Notes under the pieces: generated by a model
Databases searched by the model: none
What the model was told of the DNA's origin: nothing
Seen by the model: the letters and a program-made list of their open reading frames with translations, nothing else
DNA from: Candidatus Woesearchaeota archaeon
Lineage (GTDB): Archaea; Nanobdellota; Nanobdellia; Woesearchaeales; ARS49
NCBI GenBank assembly: GCA_016203395.1
Contig: JACQMV010000008.1
Span: 1-44,975 of the forward strand
DNA: 44,975 nt
Direction: 5' to 3'
Program-made: the position numbers and the translations under genes
Part shown: positions 10,115 through 11,911 of the stretch, one piece after another
Position numbering within the stretch: the first letter of the stretch is position 1
Layout of the letters: each line of letters begins with the position of its first letter

Positions 10115-11585
10115 TGGTCACTCCGAGATTTTTTATTATTTTTCGTACTTCGTTTATGTTAGATACTTCGCTTGTGCTTGCAAGTAATGCCAGGTTTTTT
10201 CTTAAGCCGATGTTTGTTCCTTCTGGTGTTTCTGAAGGGCATAATCTTCCAAGATGTGTTGAGTGTAGTTCTCTTGCTTCAAAATTTTCTTGGCTTGCGG
10301 ATAATGGAGACACTATTCGCTGGATGTGGCTTAAAACATTCAGATGATTTAGTCGTTGTATTCTTTGGCTGATTCCTTTTCTTCCGCCGACCCAATTGCC
10401 TGTTGCCATTGCACTGTACACTCTGCTTGTTAATAGTTTCTCTCTTATTATGACTTTTATGCTTGGGAATTTTCCTCTTTTTACTATTCTTTGGAAATTA
10501 TAAAGCATGTCATTGATGAATACTTTAAGGTTCATTCTGAAAAGGTCTGCAAGAAGGTCTCCTGACATTTTTATTCTTTTGTTTATATAATGGTCTTTGT
10601 CATCTGTCGTTATTCTTCCTTCGGCGCATTCTATGAATTTTCTTAGGTACTTGCATAGGTTGATAGCTTTTGCTAACCGGTCTTCTTTTTTCGTTCCAAC
10701 GTGTGGCAGAAGGTATCTGTCTAACAAGTCGTTCATCCTTTCCAGTCGGACATCTTTTGCTTGTGTTATTCCTATTTTTTTTGCTACATAGTCCATTGCC
10801 TGTTCTGCGTCTTTTATGCTAGCGTATTCAAATAGGTTTATGATTAGCTTGTCATAGTGTTTTTCTTTGCATACATTTTTTACTATTACTTCATCGCTCG
10901 TCATTCCGAGGGCTTTAATTATTGGGATTATTGGTACTCTTGTTACTCTTGTGAATGAAAGGTTGAACATTCCGTCCTTGAGGCATTCTATTGTATGCGG
11001 TATTTTGTAAGGACCTTGTTCAGAGAACAGTTTTCCTGTGAATTCTGATTGTCCTTTTGTTTTCTCTACGAGGAATTTATTGGGCGCAAGATCTTCTATT
11101 GATACGAGCACCCTTTCTGTTCCATTCACTATGAAGTATCCGCCTATATCATAAGGATCTTCGCCTTTTTCTATTAGTTCTTCTTTTGATAATCCTGATA
11201 ACCGGCAGTATTTGCTTTTTAGCATTATTGGTAAGCTGCCTATTTGTGTTTGGAATGTTTCTCTTTGAATCTCGTTTACGTGGCTGCTTATTTCTATGAA
11301 TATTGGTGCTGCGTAGGATAATTGTCTCAGTCGTGCTTCTTGTGGGTATATTGGTCTTTTGCTTCCGTCTGCTTCGGTTATTTCTGGTTTTGTCACCCAT
11401 ACTTTGTCTATTTTTATTTTGAATGATTCTACATTTGTTGGTATGATTGTTGGTAAGATTTCCTTGTTTTCTTCAAAAATAGCAGGAAGCTCTTTTTCAA
11501 CGAATGTGTTAAAGCTTTCTGTATCACTTTTTACAAAGCTGTTCTCCTGAAAGTATTTCGTTATCAATAGGTTTGCTGCTTTCAT
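10107..11585 (-). CDS. rpoB2: DNA-directed RNA polymerase subunit B''
   Basis: GGYFIVNGTERVLVSIEDLAPN, LHSTHLGRLCPSETPEGTNIGLRKNLAL; overlaps rpoB1. Confidence 0.98.
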   Translation of the reverse strand: MKAANLLITKYFQENSFVKSDTESFNTFVEKELPAIFEENKEILPTIIPTNVESFKIKIDKVWVTKPEITEADGSKRPIYPQEARLRQLSYAAPIFIEISSHVNEIQRETFQTQIGSLPIMLKSKYCRLSGLSKEELIEKGEDPYDIGGYFIVNGTERVLVSIEDLAPNKFLVEKTKGQSEFTGKLFSEQGPYKIPHTIECLKDGMFNLSFTRVTRVPIIPIIKALGMTSDEVIVKNVCKEKHYDKLIINLFEYASIKDAEQAMDYVAKKIGITQAKDVRLERMNDLLDRYLLPHVGTKKEDRLAKAINLCKYLRKFIECAEGRITTDDKDHYINKRIKMSGDLLADLFRMNLKVFINDMLYNFQRIVKRGKFPSIKVIIREKLLTSRVYSAMATGNWVGGRKGISQRIQRLNHLNVLSHIQRIVSPLSASQENFEARELHSTHLGRLCPSETPEGTNIGLRKNLALLASTSEVSNINEVRKIIKNLGVTNG

Positions 11586-11809
11586 GCGTTCACGACTCTT
11601 CTGTAAAACATGCTTTCCAGTGCTGTCGGGCTTGTTCTGGTTACTTTCACAACATCTCCTTCTTTTGCATCTAATTTCTGAATTGCCGGATCATTCATGA
11701 ATATTCTTGGAAGGTCTTTTGTGTCTATATTGTATTTCTCAAGTAGTTCTTTCTTCTCTTTCTCACTCAGCTTCGTATGCTTCGGCACTAATGCATGTTT
11801 GTTGTCCAT
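11582..11809 (-). CDS. rpoH: DNA-directed RNA polymerase subunit H
   Basis: 75 aa, LVPKHTKLSEKEKKELLEKYNI...LPRIFMNDPAIQKLDAKEGDVVKVTRTSPTA...YYRRVV-type RpoH sequence; first gene of the rpo operon. Confidence 0.95.
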   Translation of the reverse strand: MDNKHALVPKHTKLSEKEKKELLEKYNIDTKDLPRIFMNDPAIQKLDAKEGDVVKVTRTSPTALESMFYRRVVNA

Positions 11810-11823
11810 TTTGTGTGTAAATG

Positions 11824-11911
11824 CGGGGCGGACGGGATTTTCGTCTTTTGTTTCGAACCCGCAACCATCGGATTAAAAGTCCGATGCTCTACCAGGTTGA
11901 GCTACCGCCCC
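11824..11911 (-). tRNA. tRNA-Lys (anticodon TTT) with a predicted 14-nt intron in the T-loop (intron about 11838-11851)
   Basis: Minus strand GGGGCGGTAGCTCAACCTGGTAGAGCATCGGACTTTTAATCCGATGGTTGCGGGTTCGAA[ACAAAAGACGAAAA]TCCCGTCCGCCCCG; all four stems pair; removing 14 nt restores a canonical TTCGAAT loop. Confidence 0.88.

Follow-up and report, generated by a model that had tools for sequence, protein, structure and literature searches.

The tRNA-Lys(TTT) gene upstream of rpoH in this Candidatus Woesearchaeota genome carries fourteen extra bases in its T-loop, which raises the question of whether they are an intron, an expansion kept in the mature tRNA or a sign of decay. The complete gene occupies 88 nt of the minus strand, 11911..11824 of the window (the whole stretch of DNA analysed, 44,975 nucleotides), with exact ends, discriminator base included, as read directly from the sequence. 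In minus-strand order it consists of GGGGCGG, TA, GCTC..GAGC, A, TCGGA, CTTTTAA, TCCGA, TGGTT, GCGGG, TTCGAAACAAAAGACGAAAAT, CCCGT, CCGCCCC and G. A sequence-only reading of this DNA had claimed that all stems of the tRNA pair and that the T-loop is too long by 14 nt. Direct reading bears this out: the acceptor stem pairs 7/7, and the D stem (4 pairs), anticodon stem (5) and T stem (5, one of them G-T) are intact, while the T-loop TTCGAAACAAAAGACGAAAAT measures 21 nt, that is, 7 + 14. The anticodon loop CTTTTAA is uninterrupted, so that there is no intron at the canonical position 37/38, one base 3' of the anticodon, and the exons follow each other in normal order within the 88 nt, which does not fit a permuted or split tRNA.

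On the minus strand the gene is divided into a 5' exon (11852..11911; tRNA positions 1-59, comprising the 5' half of the acceptor stem, the D-arm, the anticodon arm with CTTTTAA, the 5' half of the T-stem and TTCGAA), a predicted 14-nt intron ACAAAAGACGAAAA at position 59/60 (11838..11851), and a 3' exon (11824..11837) running from T60 through CCCGT and CCGCCCC to the discriminator G73. Excision of ACAAAAGACGAAAA (11851..11838) yields the T-loop TTCGAAT, as the same reading had stated, and a 74-nt tRNA that ARAGORN calls tRNA-Lys(ttt). ARAGORN made no call on the unspliced gene and reported tRNA-Val alone within the whole window; the Rfam tRNA model at its cut-off likewise missed the gene and recovered only tRNA-Val in the window. 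A genome search with RF00005 gave a partial match to the 5' exon, at 11854-11911, with 28.5 bits against a cut-off of 29. Intron-bearing tRNA genes of this kind are missed or mis-read by ARAGORN and Rfam, and essential tRNAs therefore seem absent from such genomes.

The unconstrained minimum free energy (MFE) fold of the 88-nt precursor contains the cloverleaf stems, with TTCG:CGAA stacked on the T-stem and an AAT bulge (z = -3.1 versus shuffles). The exon half of this 4-bp central helix is TTCG (T54 T55 C56 G57; minus strand, 11854..11857) and the intron half CGAA (11840..11843, minus). The 3' bulge AAT (11837..11839, minus) has its predicted cut between 11838 and 11837; AAA on the opposite strand (11851..11853, minus) has its predicted cut between 11852 and 11851, and cutting each of the two 3-nt elements after the second base restores the mature tRNA. 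The helix and the AAT bulge had been proposed from the letters of this gene and recur in the fold; AAA, proposed as the 5' bulge, is instead part of a 10-nt loop open to the intron. The interior of the intron is unpaired in the MFE fold, the inner helix h' of a strict hBHBh' bulge-helix-bulge (BHB) motif is absent from the window copy, and its motif is a relaxed one, hBH plus loop. An inner stem is visible by eye in the inserts of some relatives (e.g. L042, L044 and L053). The archaeal BHB intron class is taken to include relaxed hBH forms (PMC6379350). Pairing of the intronic AAAAG with CTTTT of the anticodon loop, to which it is antisense, was no better for a gene's own intron than for swapped ones among 47 genes and was put down to chance.

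The site was compared across relatives by scanning upstream of rpoB in the family genomes and 80 named genomes, which gave 69 distinct tRNA-Lys(TTT) genes beside rpoH, the window's included. An insert occupies the same site in 47 of them, and the other 22 have a plain 7-nt T-loop. Insert length ranges from 13 to 122 nt, with twelve inserts of 13-15 nt. The edges of the insert are conserved: AA follows TTCR in 47/47 genes, the 5' bulge reads AAN in 47/47, the final T-loop base T60 is present in 47/47, and the 3' bulge keeps the 3-nt form NNT, the two bases before T being variable. Exon TTCR and intronic YGAA are paired in 182 of 188 cells (97%), compared with 23-59% when one strand is slid by 1 to 4 bases. 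With insertion point and pairing recurring in 47 distinct genes, the pattern goes beyond chance.

Base 57 co-varies with its partner: G-C occurs in 27 of the 47 genes, A-T in 14 and G-T in 3, the remaining 3 (all G) are unpaired, and A-C is never found. This association has a Fisher p of 6e-9 with kinship ignored; a kinship-aware count yields 4 independent pairs, nearly all agreeing, with p = 0.125, which is not significant alone. When T-stem and central helix are taken together over 29 distinct rows, 98.1% of cells are paired (32-57% when slid), two-sided changes number 18 versus 4.8 in shuffles (12 in the T-stem, 6 at base 57), and the covariation score was equalled by 0/500 shuffles. An RpoB tree with 42 rows bearing the insert and 19 lacking it requires at least 13 changes, and the predicted intron is one that is repeatedly lost or gained at one point. 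Class-wide, a pattern requiring an uninterrupted anticodon gave 79 tRNA-Lys matches in 378 genomes, of which 22 have the insert, eight of them in other orders, with 83/88 cells of the central helix paired.

Many relatives' tRNA-Lys(TTT) genes have a second insert in the D-loop besides that in the T-loop, and some a third at 37/38 (L037, L045, L068, L089, L095, L113, L126, L132, L138, L140 and others). Just upstream of tRNA-Lys, what is apparently tRNA-Asp(GTC) is in many cases itself interrupted by a T-loop insert and an anticodon-loop intron (L076, L107, L111 and others).

Taken together, the fourteen bases are very probably a short intron of the archaeal type, interrupting at position 59/60 a tRNA-Lys(UUU) that is expressed and functional. 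The comparative data agree with the identity, position and length proposed earlier and with cuts after the second base of each bulge. In the transcribed precursor, exon T54-T55-C56-G57 would form the central helix with the CGAA that lies close to the intron's 3' end, and AAA and AAT would be the bulges at the two cut sites; EndA would cut each bulge after its second base, and RtcB would ligate A59 to T60 to give TTCGAAT. Unusual tRNAs exist, but retention of the extra bases as an expanded T-loop in the mature tRNA is very unlikely: length (13-122 nt) and interior of the insert are unconstrained, yet the 7-nt exon loop and the edge pairing are kept, and the insert is precisely absent in other lineages. 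From established tRNA structure, a 21-nt T-loop is moreover expected to break the elbow formed by D-loop and T-loop.

The silence of the standard finders could also be taken to mean that the gene is a pseudogene or a decaying copy. Every stem is intact, however, and the same locus is conserved across many genera. The search for a second tRNA-Lys(TTT) that the sequence-only reading had called for found none in the assembly, which is 88.6% complete, and the only other tRNA-Lys there has the anticodon CTT and an anticodon-loop intron of 11 nt; a second TTT copy may lie outside the assembly. Lysine codons in eight genes of the window are 259 AAA versus 81 AAG, so that AAA is used three times as often as AAG in the sampled genes. 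With no second tRNA-Lys(TTT) found and AAA as the main lysine codon, decay is extremely improbable; since CTT is the only other tRNA-Lys found and AAA outnumbers AAG, the gene is probably essential. A variant of the intron reading places the cut elsewhere, at TTCGA/AT or TTCG/AAT, as the A runs flanking the junction allow. All three frames give TTCGAAT and are indistinguishable in this one sequence, but both the BHB rule and the NN/T 3' ends of the relatives (final T in 47/47, the two preceding bases variable) favour a 3' cut just before T60, and there is hardly any likelihood that the cut is shifted.

An intron at 59/60 of tRNA-Lys(TTT) is a further case of an established archaeal type, and position 59/60 is listed among the known intron sites of archaea (PMC4090602). 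The non-canonical BHB introns described there share with it the 59/60 position, the 4-bp central helix, the 3-nt bulges, a helix whose exon half lies in the T-loop and, for some of the relatives studied here, further introns in the same tRNA. Their descriptions come chiefly from Crenarchaeota, Thaumarchaeota, N. equitans and ARMAN, whose endonucleases are for the most part heteromeric or carry a loop (PMC4090602), whereas the present ones are from Woesearchaeota, with a single alpha-type EndA found. A 59/60 junction with a BHB motif is also found in the T-loop permuted tRNAs of Thermofilum pendens and Cyanidioschyzon merolae, including tRNA-Lys(UUU) of C. merolae, but in those genes the 3' half comes first, while the Woesearchaeota gene has the normal order with an intron (PMC3218864). 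No publication on tRNA introns in this Woesearchaeota lineage came up in a literature search.

At least one further intron away from the anticodon is apparently processed in this genome. tRNA-Val(TAC) (L015 1501-1604; G000:C46:4792-4895, minus) has a 31-nt D-loop BHB intron with a GTGG:CCAC helix and 3-nt bulges; with the insert excised ARAGORN calls Val(tac), while the unspliced gene is called Val(cac) with an anticodon-stem intron. A motif search in 27 family genomes with splice-then-call tests showed that relatives have T-loop introns like that of tRNA-Lys in ordinary tRNAs as well, among them those for Ala, Ile(TAT), Met, Glu, Gly and Phe. In the window's own genome the pattern for further T-loop introns matched tRNA-Lys plus one site without a surrounding tRNA. 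TTCR is nearly universal among tRNA T-loops, so that any insert with a 3'-terminal YGAANN can form the motif, and within this lineage the T-loop would offer introns a general landing site.

The genes for the two enzymes of this scheme are present. RtcB ligase is encoded in the genome, as is one alpha-type EndA (L033, 165 aa, both Pfam domains). The heteromeric splicing endonuclease suggested as a check by the earlier reading was not recovered: no beta subunit or second PF01974 gene was found in the genome even at E 10, and the 23 family genomes that gave a PF01974 match, this one included, have one such gene apiece. Broad-specificity EndAs, (alpha-beta)2 or epsilon2, have a second subunit gene or a fused unit and as a rule carry an ASL/CSL loop. 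A beta subunit may be very divergent or may be located in the missing 11% of the genome. In sequence the EndA is nearest to 3IEY_A (N. equitans EndA alpha; E 3e-27), with the alpha4 EndA of Methanocaldococcus jannaschii (1A79) at E 3e-20. It resembles both in its two domains and in the Y, H and K residues, which are kept in an alignment to these and other EndAs; the same alignment has no obvious insertion of ASL/CSL size. N. equitans has a second (beta) EndA gene, in contrast to the Woesearchaeota genome, in which none was found. The N. equitans endonuclease is (alpha-beta)2 and broad, and the beta gene was likewise not found in the nanoarchaeon Nst1 (PMC3655853).

Endonucleases of the alpha4 and alpha'2 types have been described as narrow (PMC6379350, PMC4033280). 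A single alpha-type EndA is thus the less expected element here and, like the missing inner helix, speaks against the intron reading. Reviews hold that alpha4/alpha2 enzymes cut canonical BHBs only, and they see non-canonical introns as having co-evolved with enzymes that are heteromeric or bear a loop (PMC4033280, PMC6379350, PMC12397907). The Woesearchaeota lineage is a direct test of this view, since off-anticodon introns are common in it, yet each genome yielded only a single alpha-type gene, without the loop. It is proposed tentatively, at somewhat less than even likelihood, that a single-gene alpha4 EndA without an ASL/CSL loop processes the T- and D-loop introns of Woesearchaeota, even those with a relaxed BHB that lacks the inner helix, with the universal TTCR as general landing site. 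If true, the processing of such introns by a loop-less alpha4 enzyme would break the accepted association of non-canonical introns with an EndA that is heteromeric or bears a loop. The lineage-wide occurrence of the introns together with a single loop-less EndA is the part that specialists would want tested.

In the assembly, an 884-kb genome in 60 contigs, the window corresponds to contig C50; the closest named relatives by RpoB are Candidatus Woesearchaeota, at 81% identity. Downstream of tRNA-Lys(TTT), rpoH (11582..11809, minus; RNA polymerase Rpb5 C-terminal domain, Pfam PF01191, E 4e-27) starts after 14 nt and is followed by split rpoB and rpoA genes; tRNA-Lys lies upstream of rpoH in most related loci. 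RF00005 found no tRNA for Ala, Asp, Glu or Met in any contig of the 88.6% complete assembly, and these are either unassembled or too disrupted for detection. A search of the same genome for disrupted copies with a T-arm pattern yielded nothing but one truncated tRNA at the end of a contig, a duplicate of a tRNA-Ile tail and two sites with no tRNA around them. The duplicated tail, at C55:11353 (L190), copies the 3' end of tRNA-Ile(GAT), whose intact gene (C55:10534-10608) lies about 0.75 kb upstream; the copy is possibly the attachment-site duplicate of an integrated element. Another locus (L018, C21:4531-4626) is apparently a tRNA-Ile(TAT) with a canonical intron, its anticodon read by eye and given by ARAGORN as '???'. 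The TAT anticodon is rare in archaea, AUA usually being decoded by a modified CAT tRNA.

The motif search in the family genomes also turned up a multi-copy family of type-II genes resembling tRNA-Ser, found in relatives (L223-L236, L238-L255 and L258-L264, in G001, G003, G010, G011, G016, G017, G019, G020 and G021) and not in the genome of the window. It reaches about ten copies per genome with very variable anticodons (GAA, GAG, GAT, GTC, CTC, CAG and others); Rfam did not recognise it in a sample of scanned loci, and a literature search found no paper on it. The T-loop insert of these genes is 27-40 nt long, with a conserved CTTTCGGT-like start and the pairing TTCA:TGAA, and is antisense to the anticodon arm of its own gene. 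The mean duplex energy is -13.4 kcal/mol, versus -10.4 (sd 0.44) when inserts are swapped among genes; the own-gene value was reached in 0/2000 swaps, and in 0/5000 when swaps are made within the genome.
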